From: Candidatus Zixiibacteriota bacterium
GTDB taxonomy: Bacteria > Zixibacteria > MSB-5A5 > GN15 > FEB-12
Direction: 5' to 3'
NCBI GenBank assembly: GCA_020346225.1
Contig: CP070777.1
Location: 2,489,576-2,528,863, forward strand
DNA: 39,288 nt
The notes under the pieces were generated by a model that worked only from the letters and a program-made list of their open reading frames with translations, made no database searches and was not told the origin of the DNA. Shown in pieces: positions 15,101-22,824 of this stretch. A program made the translations under genes and the position numbers. Numbering within the stretch: the stretch's first letter is position 1; every line of letters begins with the position of its first letter.

Positions 15101-15129
15101 TTGACCAATTGGATGTCAGACAATATATT
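15101..15129 (+). promoter_or_regulatory. Strong sigma70-like promoter of the DUF1573 pair
   Basis: TTGACC (15101-15106), a 17-bp spacer and TATATT (15124-15129). The predicted start near 15136 leaves a leader of about 45 nt. It rules out the ATG at 15109 as the translation start. A dyad of GAGACAGTTC (15130-15139) with GAAC-T-TGTCTC (15144-15154) overlaps the start site and may be an operator or a 5' hairpin. Confidence 0.65.
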
Positions 15130-15180: not shown

Positions 15181-15873
15181 ATGAGGATACATCATTTCCT
15201 GACTATCGCCATACTGTCGTCAATGGCGTCGACTTCCCAGGCCGGGCCTGACTTGCGGGTCCGCAGTGAACGATTCGAGATGGGTGCTGTCCAGCACAGT
15301 ACCTGGGCCAGTCACGCTTTCTGGTTTCGCTCCACGGGCGACGACACGCTGGTCATCCACGAGATCAAGACAAACTGCGGCTGTACTCTGATGCCGCTGG
15401 AGAGAAACTGGATTGCTCCCGGGGACAGCCTGCGGGTCGATATTTGCTGGGATGTATGGAAGCGAATCGGTGCCACGGGCAGCTACCCGTACATTTACAC
15501 CAACGCCGGCGTGGACCCTTTCCGGGTCTATCTGACGGCGACGGTAATTGTCGACGGGGGTAATACGCGGCCGCTGGCTTTCAATCCGCACATATTCGAG
15601 TTGCCGCGTTTTGGCGACCGCTCGATCGACAGTGTCGGTTTCACCATCCGCAATTTCTCGGATGAAGAGGTGCGTCTGAAGCCGGTGTCGTTCTTCGTTG
15701 ATGAATGTGATATCGTGCTGCCCGAAGTGGTCGCCGGCAAAGGGACCGCCAAGGGTTATATCAAGGTAAGAAATGACTTTCTTGACAGCGAATTCAAGAG
15801 GTCGATAACCATAGAGATGAACGACCAGAAGGAGAATCGTCTGACGATACCGATCAGACGAAAGATCTACTGA
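15181..15873 (+). CDS. DUF1573 domain protein, exported, Cys form (C-G-C)
   Basis: A 230-residue protein with a signal peptide (MRIHHFLTIAILSSMASTSQ then AGPDL). The first beta-sandwich domain of DUF1573 (PF07610) type follows: FWFRSTGDDTLVIHEIKTNC, then C66-G-C68-T and the PGDSLRVDI strand. A second Ig-like half runs from about residue 130 to the end. The role of DUF1573 is not established; members are usually periplasmic or surface proteins. ATG at 15181 is preferred over the frame start at 15109 because the signal peptide starts here and the promoter would overlap the longer version. It is the first gene of a pair and ends 45 nt before the Sec-containing paralogue. Confidence 0.85.
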   Translation: MRIHHFLTIAILSSMASTSQAGPDLRVRSERFEMGAVQHSTWASHAFWFRSTGDDTLVIHEIKTNCGCTLMPLERNWIAPGDSLRVDICWDVWKRIGATGSYPYIYTNAGVDPFRVYLTATVIVDGGNTRPLAFNPHIFELPRFGDRSIDSVGFTIRNFSDEEVRLKPVSFFVDECDIVLPEVVAGKGTAKGYIKVRNDFLDSEFKRSITIEMNDQKENRLTIPIRRKIY

Positions 15874-15918: not shown

Positions 15919-16671
15919 ATGAGAACGATATTATTGACACTGACGTTAACGGTGGTGTTGGCTTTCGCCGGTTCCAGCGCCCTGGGCGGCCCGAACATGA
16001 GCATCCCCGAGACCGATTTCGATTTCGGCTATGTGCCGCAACAGGCCAAAGTCAGCCATTACTTCTGGCTGCACTCCACCGGTGATTCCACCCTCGTGAT
16101 CGAAAAAGTGGTCCCCGGCTGAGGGTGCACCAAGGCTCCGCTGGAGAAGACGGAGCTTGCTGTCGGCGACAGCACCAGGCTGGAGATAATTTTCGATACC
16201 CGGCGCTACAGCCAGAAGGTGACCAAGCGACCGAAGATAGTGACCAACGAGGGTCCCCCCGACAAGCGGGTGTCCATCATGGCCTATATCACCAAGCGGC
16301 CCGATTCCACGTACCCGGCGGTTATCAAACCGTACAAACTGGATCTCACTCAGTTCGGAGAGAAGGTCCGCGACGAAGTTACTTTTCGAATAACCAACGT
16401 ATCCGACCAGGATCTCGATGTTTCGATGGTAGCCTACGACGGTGATTATTTCGAGGTTGAGCTTCCCGGAACCATCTCCCCCGGCGAATGGGGCGAGGCC
16501 AAACTCAAGCTGGTTGAGGAAGCACTCGACAAGGAGTTCGAAAAGTCATTCACCATTTGCGTGGGCGACGAGCTGAACACCCGGTTTACGGTACCGGTCA
16601 AGCGCAAGCTCAGACCAAGCCTTCAACAGGCGGATTCCGACGCCGGCGCCGGCGATAAAGACGCCCCGTAA
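15919..16671 (+). CDS. DUF1573 domain protein with in-frame TGA: probable selenoprotein (U-G-C)
   Basis: Read through the TGA at 16120-16122 this is a 250-residue exported protein. It has a signal peptide (MRTILLTLTLTVVLAFAGSS), a first DUF1573 domain and a second Ig-like half to the end. Residue 68 is the TGA: VVPG-U68-G-C70-T-KAPLEK. The tandem neighbour reads KTN-C66-G-C68-T-LMPLER at the aligned place, and the preceding blocks match (SHYFWLHSTGDSTLVIEK against SHAFWFRSTGDDTLVIHE). The frame after the TGA is intact, keeps the VGDSTRLEI strand, and stays open for 183 codons. A stem-loop starts 10 nt after the TGA. Selenocysteine is therefore more likely than a nonsense mutation or sequencing error, though neither is excluded. 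ATG at 15919 has GAGG upstream. A standard annotation would split or truncate this gene at 16122. Confidence 0.8.
16120..16176 (+). promoter_or_regulatory. Candidate bacterial SECIS element after the TGA
   Basis: From the TGA, AAG-G-CTCCG (16132-16140) pairs with CGGAG-CTT (16151-16158), giving eight base pairs with one bulged G at 16135. The 10-nt apical loop is CTGGAGAAGA (16141-16150). The loop begins 18 nt after the TGA and carries GG near its 5' side. Bacterial SECIS elements bound by SelB are stem-loops just downstream of UGA with G in the apical loop, so spacing and loop fit. A second hairpin, GCTGTC/GACAGC (16159-16173), follows, and GGTGC (16124-16128) can pair with GCACC (16172-16176) to close both. 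A competing small hairpin CTCC/GGAG is possible. Confidence 0.6.
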
Positions 16672-16694
16672 CGGGCTCGAAAAAGACAAAAAAG

Positions 16695-16717
16695 AGCCAC
16701 CCCGAGGGGTGGCTTTT
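16695..16717. terminator. Bidirectional rho-independent terminator
   Basis: AGCCACCCC (16695-16703) and GGGGTGGCT (16706-16714) form a GC-rich hairpin with T's after it on the plus strand and an A-rich run before it that serves the minus strand. It sits between the converging DUF1573 pair and the GWxTD operon. Confidence 0.85.
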
Positions 16718-16742: not shown

Positions 16743-18179
16743 TCAACGGTTCAAGTCGATATAACCCTGGTCGATCTGCTCCTGCCACCCGCGGCTGTAA
16801 ACCTCACCGGATACGTTGGAATGAACCAGCCGGTAGTCGTCGTTGCCGGACCAGTCCTCGAACAGGAAGAACTTCCCTTCCCTTATCGAGCGATAGTGCC
16901 AGATTTCAAAGGGGTTGCCTATGCGCGGGGCCTGGTACTCATCACGCTCGTCCCACACGCCGTAGGTCAGGTAAATTCTCCCGCGATCGGTGGACCAGCC
17001 GTCGGTCCGGTCGTTGTTGGTGGAGAAGAATTTGTTGGCGTACTTGTACCGGCGAATCATCTCGATCCTGTTTTCCACGACGCCGGTCGCGCGGTTGACA
17101 TCGTGCTCCTTCCAGTACCCGTCCAGATAATTCATCTTGCCCTGAGCCGACAGACCTTCCAGAATGGCCAGCTGCTCGGCCGTGACCAGATACTTGACCA
17201 TGTTGACATGGTCATCGACGGTAAGGCCTTCCTCCAATTGCTGTTGAGTCCGGCGCTGTCCGGAAGCGGCCGCCAGTAAAGCCTGGGTCGAAACGATACT
17301 GAAGGGGAGGATGGCGGTGTCGGCCTGTCCCGACTGAAGGTCGCCGGCCACAATTTCCACCTTATAACCGCCCGTTTTCCAGCCGGCGATGCCGAACGAC
17401 TCGGTGATCACGGCTGATTCGCCCGGTTTCCGGGCGATTCTTCCTCCCATATTTTCAACCTCGACACCGTTTGCATCGGTCAGGCGGAGGGCTATGCGGT
17501 AATCGGACGGCGCCGAAGCCTCGTACGTAAGGTTATAAATCTCGCCGTAAACGTATATCAGCGTATCGCTTCGGGCGAAGATCGAAACGGGATTGACGGT
17601 GACATGAAAGCCGTTTTTGTACAGGCGCGGGTTGTAGCTAGGGCTCTCTTTGCCGACGTAGACCAGGTTATAGGCCAGGCAGGCGCCGCCGATCGTCAGT
17701 CTCGACGGATCCGACGGTGTGACGGTCAGTTCATCGAAGAAGTAGTCCCCTCGAGCCTTGCTGGCCACGTCGATAACAATAAGCCGCGCCGCATATCGAC
17801 CCGGCCGGACCATCATCACCAGTTTGTTGAAGATGCGGAATCCGCCGATCCGGGCCTCATCAGGGCTGTTGACTTTCAGGGAAAAATACGTTCTCACCGA
17901 ATCAATGGCGAAACCGGCGGTGTCAAGCAGGTCGACCTGGGCGAAGACCCGGGCGTAAAGGCCGCCGTCAAGCGAATCCCGGTCGAAAAAAGTGAACTCG
18001 TCGCGGTTGAGCGAAAAGGGGAATTCAACCATGACGAGCGAGTCGAAATCCGGGTTATTGCTGATGACCGCGCCGGCGTAAACCGCGAGCTCCCCTTTCG
18101 GTTCGGCTCCTGCCTGCCCGGCAGCAAGGAGACCGGCAACAATCAGTACAGTGGCCCCCAGCATCCTCACCGCTGTCAA
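16743..18179 (-). CDS. GWxTD-domain protein, exported (second copy)
   Basis: A 478-residue protein with an N-terminal signal peptide (MLGATVLIVAGLLAAGQAGA). A central beta-rich region follows, then the C-terminal GWxTD motif: TDGWSTDRGRIYLTYGVWDE, then PFEIWHYRSIREGKFFLFED. The GWxTD domain is found in envelope proteins of Bacteroidetes-like and related phyla, and its function is unknown. TTG at 18179 is chosen because AAAGGAG lies 7 nt upstream; the first ATG is five codons later. It is the last gene of the export operon, 12 nt after the first GWxTD gene, and ends at the bidirectional terminator. Confidence 0.85.
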   Translation of the reverse strand: MTAVRMLGATVLIVAGLLAAGQAGAEPKGELAVYAGAVISNNPDFDSLVMVEFPFSLNRDEFTFFDRDSLDGGLYARVFAQVDLLDTAGFAIDSVRTYFSLKVNSPDEARIGGFRIFNKLVMMVRPGRYAARLIVIDVASKARGDYFFDELTVTPSDPSRLTIGGACLAYNLVYVGKESPSYNPRLYKNGFHVTVNPVSIFARSDTLIYVYGEIYNLTYEASAPSDYRIALRLTDANGVEVENMGGRIARKPGESAVITESFGIAGWKTGGYKVEIVAGDLQSGQADTAILPFSIVSTQALLAAASGQRRTQQQLEEGLTVDDHVNMVKYLVTAEQLAILEGLSAQGKMNYLDGYWKEHDVNRATGVVENRIEMIRRYKYANKFFSTNNDRTDGWSTDRGRIYLTYGVWDERDEYQAPRIGNPFEIWHYRSIREGKFFLFEDWSGNDDYRLVHSNVSGEVYSRGWQEQIDQGYIDLNR

Positions 18180-18191
18180 GGTACGTCTCCT

Positions 18192-19526
18192 TTAAAATTC
18201 GGGCCGGTGCCCAAGGCCGTCGTAGGGATATACGAGCCTGAAGTCGCCGTCGCCATTCTCATCGACAAACACGAACTTCCGGTACCTGGCCTCCCGGTAA
18301 TAGTGCCACTCCTGATAGGGCTGCCGGTCAAGCACGAAAGGATAATCGTCGACCTGATCCGGTTCGCCGTACACGATGTAAACCCTGCCCCGGTCGGTTT
18401 TCCAACCGGCCCTTCTGAGATACGAGAAATGCTGATTGGCGAAATTGATGCGGCGGTAGAACTCCGTTTTGACCTCATTATCGGGAGTCCCGGGAGTCGG
18501 GTCACGACCGAGCCAGAATTCAGCGAAGGCCCGTTGCCTCTCGTCGAAAGTCTCAAGACCTTTCAGCTGGTCAACGTCGCTGTCCTGAGCGATGATCGAA
18601 AGCTGGCTAAGAATCGACTCGTAGTCATGCTTCAACAGCGATTTTTCCGACCAGACCAGCTCAAAGTACTTGTCTTTCTCGTCAACTTTCTTGTCGCGTC
18701 GACCCTTCAGGGCGATGTGAAGTCGGAAACCGCCGGGTCTCAAATCCTCCAGGGAGATTTCGCGCAACTGGCGGGCGGCGCCGTCCACAAACTCGCTCGA
18801 AAGCGAATCCCGGTATAGCATGCCCCTGGTGTCATGGCGAAGAGAGGTTTCTATCTGGACCTCGCTCGCCGAATCCTGGCCCTGATACACCTCGAAGTAG
18901 AACATCAGCTTCAGGGCGTCATCGGAGCCGTACTTGTGCGAAACGGACGGGACCACGGTAAACTCACCCTTGTCGAACTTGGTGGCGTCGTCCCCGGTCG
19001 CCGAAGCACTCTGAACCAGCTGGATATCCGAAAGACTGGCATGCTTCTGTTGCAGGTACTGCGCCTTGGTCTTGAAAGAACGTTCAATGCTCTTGTCGCT
19101 TCTGGCATCCGTCAGAGTCAGCTTCACCTCGTACTTCTCAGGGTCCAGATCAAACTTGACCAGGTTGGTGCGGTAATCGAAGCGTGACTTGGCCTGCGCC
19201 TCGGTCCGGACCTTGATGCGCTTGGTGTCGCGGTACGAGTCGACGAGCAGATCGTTCTTACCGTACACCGCCACCAGGATTTCGTACTCGGCGGCGTAGA
19301 CTCCCCCCTGGCGATAAAACTCGAGGGCGGCGTTATAAATCTGGTAGTAGACCTCCAGCCGGACTTTGCCCGGGGTCGTCGAGTTAAAAACCGCGTGGTC
19401 AACCAGGAAGTAAGGGTCGTTGGCATCTTTGGAAAAAACGTTGAAAGCCGACTGCCCGTGAACGACGCCGGCAACCATCGTGAGGGCGATGAGAATCGCT
19501 ACAATGTGGGTTTTGTAAGTCATCAT
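18192..19526 (-). CDS. GWxTD-domain protein, exported (first copy)
   Basis: A 444-residue exported protein. The signal peptide (THIVAILIALTMVAGVVHGQ) is followed by a beta-rich N-terminal half. A helical segment (LLKHDYESILSQLSIIAQDS) leads into the GWxTD domain near residues 375-440: AGWKTDRGRVYIVYGEPDQV, then PYQEWHYYREARYRKFVFVD. It shares layout with the next gene but is clearly diverged, so the pair is an old duplication. Start is ATG 19526 or 19523; no good ribosome-binding site is visible. It lies about 100 bp after the second ABC permease gene and is probably in the same transcript. Confidence 0.85.
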   Translation of the reverse strand: MMTYKTHIVAILIALTMVAGVVHGQSAFNVFSKDANDPYFLVDHAVFNSTTPGKVRLEVYYQIYNAALEFYRQGGVYAAEYEILVAVYGKNDLLVDSYRDTKRIKVRTEAQAKSRFDYRTNLVKFDLDPEKYEVKLTLTDARSDKSIERSFKTKAQYLQQKHASLSDIQLVQSASATGDDATKFDKGEFTVVPSVSHKYGSDDALKLMFYFEVYQGQDSASEVQIETSLRHDTRGMLYRDSLSSEFVDGAARQLREISLEDLRPGGFRLHIALKGRRDKKVDEKDKYFELVWSEKSLLKHDYESILSQLSIIAQDSDVDQLKGLETFDERQRAFAEFWLGRDPTPGTPDNEVKTEFYRRINFANQHFSYLRRAGWKTDRGRVYIVYGEPDQVDDYPFVLDRQPYQEWHYYREARYRKFVFVDENGDGDFRLVYPYDGLGHRPEF

Positions 19527-19629
19527 CACATAATAATAAACGAAATTGGTAACTTAGTGTTGCAAGTTAATTTTCGGGTACCTCCGGCGCAACCAAAAAG
19601 ACCCGGAAAAGCCGAATCGGAACGATATC

Positions 19630-20886
<1,257 letters not shown>

Positions 20887-20892
20887 GGCAAT

Positions 20893-22113
20893 TTACTCAT
20901 AACTTAAGGCTTTTATGGGGTCCATTCGGGCCGCTTTCAGGGCCGGGTATATTCCAAACACCAGGCCGGTGCCGGTTGAGATCGTCAGACCGGCAATTAT
21001 GGCCAGAGCCGACGGTGTTATCTGCATATCGAGCATGCCCACCAGCGACTTGGCTATCAGGAAACCCAGTATTATGCCCAACAGGCCGCCCGACAGGGTC
21101 AGCATCAGGGCCTCGAACATAAACTGAATCAGGACATGGCGCCTCTTGGCGCCGACCGATTTCCTGATGCCGATTTCCCGCGTTCGTTCGGTTACGGAAA
21201 CCATCATTATATTCATGACCACGATTCCGCCGACAACGACGGATATGGAAGAGATGCCCACCAATCCCAGCCGGAAGATCTTGGTCAGCGAATTCAGAAG
21301 GTCCAGCATAGACTCGGCCGTGACCATGTCAAAATCGTCGGGCTTATCGTATGGTACATGTCTCTGGGCGCGCAGTATAATTCGCACCTGGTCCATGGCT
21401 TCGTCCAGGTCCTCCACGGTCGGGGCTTTCACGACGATGCTCAGTCCGCGACGGGGAAAACCGAATTGCCGGCTGAAGGCCGAGAGCGGGATGATCACGA
21501 AGTCGTCCTGGCTTTCGCCGAACATACTTCCCCGCTTCTTGGCCACCCCGATGACGGTGTACTTGTTCGTGCCGAGTTTGATTTCCCGGCCGATAGGGTC
21601 AACGCCTTCAAAGAACGTTTCCCTGACCAGGTCGCCAATAAACACCACCGGCCGCCGGTACAGGTCATCTTCAAACGAATGAAAGCGGCCCTGCTCGACT
21701 TCGAAATCGACAATATCGACATAGTTGGCGGTGGCGCCGGTCACGAAAACATCGCGCAGCGACTGGTCACGATATTTCGCGGTCACGGACTGGTAGGCCC
21801 GCGGGCAGACTTTTTCGCACAGTTCGCAGCCGTTTTCAATGAGCTCGACGGCCTTGTAATCGATCGGCTTGCGCTTGATCTTTTCCCAGAACATCTCGTC
21901 GGACGTAATAAAAATGATGTGCCGGACCACGAAGGTGGACGGGCCGAGGCGGGCCAGGTCCTCCTCGATGGCGCCGGCCATGCCTTCGAGAGCGGAAATG
22001 ATCGTCATCACCGAAGTGACTCCGATGATAACGCCGAGAAGGGTCAGGCCGCTGCGGAGGCGGTGCGCTCGCAGGGCACTGACGGCGATCCGAAACAGGG
22101 AAAAGACAACCAT
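20893..22113 (-). CDS. MacB-like ABC transporter permease (first), with CxxCxxxC in the periplasmic domain
   Basis: A 406-residue MacB/FtsX-type permease with the same plan as its neighbour: an N-terminal helix (SGLTLLGVIIGVTSVMTIIS), a periplasmic domain, then GIVVMNIMMVSVTERTREIG and a DPIKALSYE ending. Unusual for the family, the periplasmic domain holds C96-x2-C99-x3-C103 (NGCELCEKVCPRAYQ). The paralogue has only a single Cys there (ENCPHVDAV). ATG at 22113 is 3 nt after the ATPase stop codon, so translation is coupled. Confidence 0.92.
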   Translation of the reverse strand: MVVFSLFRIAVSALRAHRLRSGLTLLGVIIGVTSVMTIISALEGMAGAIEEDLARLGPSTFVVRHIIFITSDEMFWEKIKRKPIDYKAVELIENGCELCEKVCPRAYQSVTAKYRDQSLRDVFVTGATANYVDIVDFEVEQGRFHSFEDDLYRRPVVFIGDLVRETFFEGVDPIGREIKLGTNKYTVIGVAKKRGSMFGESQDDFVIIPLSAFSRQFGFPRRGLSIVVKAPTVEDLDEAMDQVRIILRAQRHVPYDKPDDFDMVTAESMLDLLNSLTKIFRLGLVGISSISVVVGGIVVMNIMMVSVTERTREIGIRKSVGAKRRHVLIQFMFEALMLTLSGGLLGIILGFLIAKSLVGMLDMQITPSALAIIAGLTISTGTGLVFGIYPALKAARMDPIKALSYE

Positions 22114-22116
22114 GGG

Positions 22117-22824
22117 CTAATGTACGCCGTTTCTCTGACTCTCCGGGACGGTCAGGTCTTCGGCAATCTGGCCGTCCAGAATCGACAGTATTCGATGGGC
22201 GTGCCGGGCGATATCTCTCTCGTGAGTGACGATGATGATGGTGTTGCCCTGGCGGTGCAGCTCGTCGATCAGCTTCATTATCTCGATCGAGGTCTTACTG
22301 TCGAGGTTACCGGTCGGCTCGTCGGCCAAAAGCAGCGACGGGTCGTTCACCAGCGCCCTGGCCATGGCGACCCGCTGACGCTGCCCGCCCGACAACTCGC
22401 TCGGCTTGTGGGTCACGCGGTCGCCGAGGTCCACCTTCTCCAGGGCCTGCATGGCCTTGGCCCGCCGGTCCTGCCCGGTGGTGCCGTTGTATATCAGCGG
22501 CAGCTCCACGTTATGGAGAGCCGTCGCCCGCGGCAACAGATTGAACGTCTGAAAAACAAAGCCGATTTCGCGATTGCGTATAGCGGCCAGTTCGTCGTCG
22601 TTCATCTGACTGACCTTGCGTGAGTTCAGATAGTACTCGCCCTGGGTCGGGGTATCCAAACAGCCAATCAGGTTCATCAGAGTGGACTTTCCGGAACCCG
22701 AGGGGCCCATGATGGCGACATATTCCCCTTTATCGATGCTGATCGAGACGCCCCTGAGGGCATGCACCTTTTCGGCGCCCATCTCGTATGTCTTCCACAG
22801 ATCTCTGGTCTCAATCATTGCCAT
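22117..22824 (-). CDS. ABC transporter ATP-binding protein (MacB/LolD type)
   Basis: A 235-residue ATPase subunit with all motor motifs: Walker [11 protein letters not shown]-loop [18 protein letters not shown] signature [15 protein letters not shown], Walker [17 protein letters not shown] and the switch His in [14 protein letters not shown]. Length and motif spacing match the LolD/MacB ATPase group. It powers the two permeases encoded next to it. ATG at 22824 follows the adaptor stop codon by 2 nt; the ATG two codons later is also possible. Confidence 0.96.

Follow-up and report, generated by a model that had tools for sequence, protein, structure and literature searches.

The DUF1573 locus and its in-frame TGA

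The window, a stretch of 39,288 nucleotides from the 3.18 Mb single-contig genome of a Zixibacteria bacterium, contains a two-gene unit that encodes DUF1573 proteins in tandem. The features of this unit are as follows:

15101-15129, plus strand: promoter-like TTGACC-17-TATATT before the two-gene unit (found by consensus scan only, 10/12 matches; two such sites turned up where chance alone would give 1.2)
15181-15873, plus strand: upstream tandem paralogue, an exported DUF1573 protein with Cys in its CGCT motif (PF07610, E-value 2.2e-18)
15919-16671, plus strand: predicted gene for a DUF1573 selenoprotein of 250 residues (Sec at position 68; N-terminal hydrophobic export signal)
16120-16122, plus strand: TGA that almost certainly encodes selenocysteine, at residue 68 in the U-G-C-T motif
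16133-16158, plus strand: stem-loop 1, putative spacer hairpin (5' arm 16133-16140, 3' arm 16151-16158)
16159-16173, plus strand: hairpin 2, GCUGUC-GGC-GACAGC, the putative SECIS hairpin recognised by SelB (triloop at 16165-16167, 42 nt past the UGA)
16692-16717, plus strand: terminator-like hairpin of the intrinsic type 3' of the Sec gene (11-bp stem and T run; a consensus match only)

The Sec gene runs in one frame from the ATG at 15919 to the TAA that ends at 16671, with a single in-frame TGA at 16120-16122 in the residue context ...VVPG-U-GCTKAPL... (U68-G-C70), beyond which 183 codons remain open. The Pfam DUF1573 domain (PF07610) spans the TGA, matching residues 28-122 with an E-value of 6.8e-25 and 87.4 bits (curated cut-off 26.1), and the upstream paralogue carries the motif NCGCT with a TGC aligned to the Sec residue. 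The initial annotation had placed the TGA on the Cys that opens the CGCT motif of DUF1573 and had described the downstream frame as open and family-like, and both observations are borne out by the translation, the domain match and the paralogue. In comparisons of the gene with its homologues, pN is about 0.2-0.35 against a near-saturated pS of about 0.5-1.0 on either side of the TGA, indicating that the region downstream of this codon is under purifying selection. Standard annotation breaks the gene: a table-11 ORF listing splits it, and the sole in-frame piece of at least 100 amino acids is a GTG-started fragment at 16219-16671.

Among Sec loci whose flanks are long enough to tell, almost all have a Cys-type DUF1573 copy directly upstream of the Sec gene. 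On the minus strand of the window, at 16743-22824, lies a convergent gene cluster that encodes two proteins with GWxTD domains, an ABC ATPase and two MacB-like permeases, and that is kept beside the DUF1573 pair in most relatives.

Selenocysteine decoding and conservation of the TGA

The components that the proposed selenoprotein presupposes are all encoded in the host genome, each with a score above its curated cut-off:

tRNA-Sec: contig 2845796-2845888, 68.4 bits
selA: contig 2856548-2857885, 503 bits
selB: contig 2857915-2859768, 295.7 bits
selD: G000:C1:724970-725890, with its own in-frame TGA (L018 1531-1533) in the context CAG-U-AAK

As selA scores above the cut-off in 116 of the 132 genomes of the phylum, Sec decoding is a trait of the lineage. 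Six genomes of the family (L156-L161) have a second selD that lacks a TGA and lies within an open frame of 735-753 amino acids, which suggests a fusion protein. The selA match of one relative (G058:C64:9741-11075) has one in-frame TGA, representing either a sequencing error or a Sec-containing SelA.

A DUF1573 match is present in 128 of the 132 genomes. When the Zixibacteria loci were read codon by codon, 76 alignments (58 distinct genes) were found to bear a TGA, in every case at residue 68, and the non-TGA codons at this site are TGC (58) and TGT (27), with none other. Since the TGAs of relatives all fall on the same residue, in frames that are otherwise intact, the TGA of the window is not a product of chance.

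Two other readings of this codon were considered and dropped. The standard ORF listing ends at the TGA, as would be expected if a nonsense mutation had created a true stop and left a pseudogene with a decaying downstream frame, but the confinement of the TGA to a single residue in more than 50 species, the purifying selection after it, the sel genes of the genome and the Sec-specific RNA element described below make such decay exceedingly improbable. We give as little credence to a TGA that specifies another amino acid, such as the tryptophan of code 4 or similar, or that is passed by unspecific readthrough: the open frame is compatible with this and nothing beyond it is, for the TGA aligns solely with Cys, the neighbouring paralogue uses TGA as its own stop (15871-15873), a Sec system is present and the downstream codon constraint is Sec-specific. 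That the TGA at 16120-16122 encodes selenocysteine in a DUF1573 protein is strongly supported by these sequence comparisons, which make it nearly certain. The refuting conditions of the initial annotation that were checked all favour this reading: the genome has sel genes, homologues carry TGA at this residue alone, and selection after the TGA is purifying.

RNA structure downstream of the TGA

A conserved RNA structure that is specific to the Sec forms of the gene follows the TGA. In the Sec genes, the codons 39-53 nt downstream read GCT GTC GGY GAC AGY and form a 6-bp hairpin with a GGY triloop (hairpin 2); GCTGTCGGYGACAGY is found here in 57 of the 58 Sec genes and the remaining gene matches it at 14 of 15 positions. 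Of the gene's 57 degenerate columns that are conserved, these five codons are the most tightly constrained in codon choice (G 72-139, median 6), whereas the Cys homologues mostly have P-G-D-S or similar at this site, with free codon choice. The 13-base core of the hairpin occurs once in the genome. When the phylum was searched with this core, more DUF1573 genes with Sec emerged in other, distant families of the class, all with the TGA at the identical distance. Of the occurrences outside DUF1573, about 19 were checked in other genomes, and none has a TGA where the spacing would place it. Thus, the hairpin is specific to the DUF1573 selenoprotein family. A codon bias is also seen immediately before the TGA, where codons 66-67 (window 16066-16119) favour CCT/CCC GGC in the Sec genes and rank sixth and seventh in constraint.

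The published bSECIS model calls for an apical loop of 3-9 nt, an upper stem of 4-16 bp, a G among the first two loop nucleotides and a spacing of 16-37 nt from the UGA to the apical loop (PMC13188914), with a threshold of -7.5 kcal/mol or lower for the minimum free energy (MFE). Hairpin 2 agrees with the loop, stem and G requirements in 58/58 Sec genes, but its loop lies 42 nt from the UGA in all 58, outside the 16-37 nt range, and its MFE in isolation is -4.4 to -6.8 kcal/mol. The 60-nt region of the window that includes both stem-loop 1 and hairpin 2 folds with -25.1 kcal/mol. Hairpin 2 varies so little that covariation lends next to no independent support to its pairing, and we infer the structure from this invariance, from A-to-loop changes and replacements of G-C by G-U, and by analogy with selD. 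The selD genes of 24 related genomes have, 20 nt after the UGA, a 6-bp stem whose positions pair in 96.5% of cases and show compensatory changes, and a triloop of the form G[U/G]U (GUU or GGU) in 24/24. From this sequence evidence, hairpin 2 is probably what SelB binds.

Between the UGA and hairpin 2 lies stem-loop 1, whose six inner pairs (16135-16156) span 22 nt. It is paired in 79% of cells in the Sec genes, with compensatory changes in 31 cells, and its covariation score was reached by none of 500 shuffles; out of eight pairs, the Sec genes form 6.3 on average and the Cys genes 2.9. Among informative independent contrasts, pair 18-35 is concordant in 6:0 (p 0.03), and the contrasts for pair 21-32 are not significant (p 0.25). 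The RNAalifold consensus keeps hairpin 2 and does not choose stem-loop 1, selecting instead an unvarying alternative of four pairs near the UGA; we prefer stem-loop 1, whose pairs show compensatory changes, over this alternative. Of the 58 single-sequence MFE folds, only 29 contain both hairpins.

Probable repeated Sec-to-Cys conversion

A maximum-likelihood tree of the homologues contains 11 changes of the Sec/Cys label, at least six of which are forced by supported branches. The Cys copies are mostly nested among Sec relatives, and this topology points to repeated Sec-to-Cys conversion in Zixibacterial DUF1573. An earlier survey reportedly recorded 15 such events in four families. One conversion lies inside the genus of the host itself (L024, in genome G027, where selA is still present). 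This gene and another Cys gene (L143), both with TGC, retain hairpin 2 at 15/15 and 13/13 positions, respectively, a Cys near-copy of a Sec gene (L079) has hairpin 2 with one loop base changed, and older Cys copies have lost it. These genes offer a natural conversion series with intact, fading and erased SECIS elements. Remnant SECIS structures after a Sec-to-Cys change have been reported earlier (PMC1794560), and the intact hairpin 2 of L024 and L143 could also reflect a second role of the hairpin.

More divergent Sec DUF1573 genes (L101, L102, L104, L103, L093 and L094; 41-45% identity) share both the position of the TGA and the hairpin, some of them being second copies in their genomes. Two contigs titled Calditrichota/Calditrichaeota (L054 and L060) carry DUF1573 genes and synteny like those of the Zixibacteria family, so that their taxonomic titles may be wrong. 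A search of IMG/VR found no relatives and no copy of the UGA-plus-hairpin pattern, and a plasmid search returned only distant Bacteroidales DUF1573.

Protein fold and putative function

The AlphaFold model (mean pLDDT 93.9) has an N-terminal hydrophobic helix of the export-signal type followed by a two-domain beta-sandwich, in keeping with the exported beta-sandwich family described in the initial annotation. Its best match in the PDB is 2qsv from Porphyromonas gingivalis (Z 14.4, 101 residues, 1.9 Å), and further VIA-align matches include the PapD-like HYDIN/ASH domains, CEP192 and pilus chaperones, both domains being Ig/PapD-like; a sequence search of the PDB found no relative. Residues 66-70, which form the Sec loop, lie outside the strands and directly after one of them, and a His two strands before the U-G-C motif is nearly invariant. 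A CxC pair on an Ig fold is known to be redox active in CsgC, with a potential of -139 mV, compared to -167 mV for a CGC peptide (PMC3173608), and Sec mostly replaces redox Cys in bacterial selenoproteins (PMC1794560). Given the Ig fold, the exposed Sec loop and the CsgC precedent, the U-x-C motif most likely acts, by analogy, as an envelope redox pair of the selenenylsulfide/thiol type.

Proposed mechanism and alternatives

We propose that the UGA at 16120 is decoded as Sec by the cell's own SelA, SelB, SelD and tRNA-Sec, with SelB binding the coding-region hairpin GCUGUC-GGY-GACAGY at 16159-16173. Stem-loop 1, with its span of 22 nt, would fold up the excess distance so that SelB can reach the ribosomal A site, a spacer role that its position and covariation suggest. 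The product would be exported as a two-domain Ig/PapD-like protein, whose U-G-C loop would most likely serve as the redox pair in the envelope, in concert with the Cys-type DUF1573 protein of the gene just upstream. Taken as a whole, this explanation appears to us quite probable. For its RNA part, we lean towards a two-hairpin SECIS in which the recognition hairpin is displaced by 22 nt and the covarying 22-nt stem-loop restores the distance between the UGA and SelB, with the element also dictating Val for Pro in the PGDS segment.

The roles of the two hairpins might instead be reversed, with stem-loop 1 as the SECIS in its classical position and hairpin 2 as an accessory such as a ribosome-pausing hairpin, Sec still being inserted. 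The classical distance of stem-loop 1 from the UGA, its covariation and the small G-containing loop that it has in the window itself would fit this arrangement. We think it improbable nonetheless: the stem-loop 1 region satisfies the whole bSECIS model in only 20 of the 58 Sec genes and its apical loop is not conserved, whereas hairpin 2 has a suitable loop, stem and G throughout and takes the same 6-bp, G-triloop form as the selD element. For the function of the protein, the main rival to a redox pair is a U-G-C motif that binds a metal (mercury, copper or iron-sulfur, for example) or is structural. The nearly invariant His would suit metal binding; MerT and mercuric reductase, which are metal-related selenoproteins, share the 2007 symbiont list with DUF1573 (PMC9312934); and one Bacteroides operon that contains a DUF1573 gene responds to iron (PMC10434189). 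Such a role is possible, though on the unlikely side, given the measured redox precedent of CsgC and the preference of Sec for redox Cys positions noted above.

Relationship to known selenoproteins and SECIS elements

The initial annotation called the protein a probable new selenoprotein and knew of no described DUF1573 selenoprotein. The selenocysteine assignment stands, but the family is not new. A DUF1573 protein with a UxC/UGC motif, OS_HP2 (pfam07610), was listed in PLoS Genetics in 2008 (PMC2398784), and the DUF1573 'UGC' selenoprotein appears in reviews of 2022 (PMC9312934) and 2026 (PMC13188914), both of which credit Zhang and Gladyshev 2007; its NCBIfam model is NF041425. That 2007 study reportedly gave the first description of OS_HP2, from a deltaproteobacterial symbiont of Olavius algarvensis, and the protein also occurs in Global Ocean Sampling data. 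Because DUF1573 selenoproteins were already known, the headline claim is not novel. Against NF041425, whose curated cut-off is 100 bits, the window protein reaches 73.2 bits, and all 66 relatives match the model with a best E-value of 5e-24, which converts to roughly 85 bits and is likewise below the cut-off. The window protein is thus a related DUF1573 selenoprotein that is not filed under this model. In the open-licence literature we found no report of Zixibacteria selenoproteins, the single joint match concerning marine deltaproteobacteria, although this is weak evidence of absence. The Zixibacteria-wide spread, the repeated Sec-to-Cys conversions and the SECIS layout are apparently unreported.

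A DUF1573 selenoprotein is near-universal in one bacterial order (GN15), where it has a conserved Cys partner gene, so that a redox role of DUF1573 in the envelope is now open to testing. The displaced SECIS layout, part of an RNA element that the initial annotation does not mention, is more unusual than the Sec itself and is the part worth testing, as it consistently breaks the accepted 16-37 nt spacing and has a simple mechanical explanation that is open to experiment. Gene finders built on the 16-37 nt rule would mislocate the element.

The Zixibacterial protein resembles OS_HP2 in its Pfam domain and in having Sec first in the UGC motif, and differs from it in falling below the NF041425 cut-off, in its second Ig-like domain and in its conserved tandem arrangement with a Cys paralogue. 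It is like CsgC and nDsbD, which are redox-active Ig folds, in presenting a UxC motif in a loop of an Ig-like fold, where CsgC has CxC; unlike them, it is a two-domain PapD-like protein with Sec in place of the first Cys, and the likeness is one of fold. Its hairpin 2 shares with the bSECISearch model the small G-first apical loop, the 6-bp upper stem and the location in the coding region downstream of the UGA, but departs from the model in having its loop at 42 nt and a covarying stem-loop in between. The closest counterpart in the same genomes is the SECIS of selD, which also has a 6-bp stem and a three-base G loop (GGY in DUF1573), yet lies 20 nt after the UGA without a spacer hairpin, so that the DUF1573 hairpin is displaced by 22 nt relative to it.
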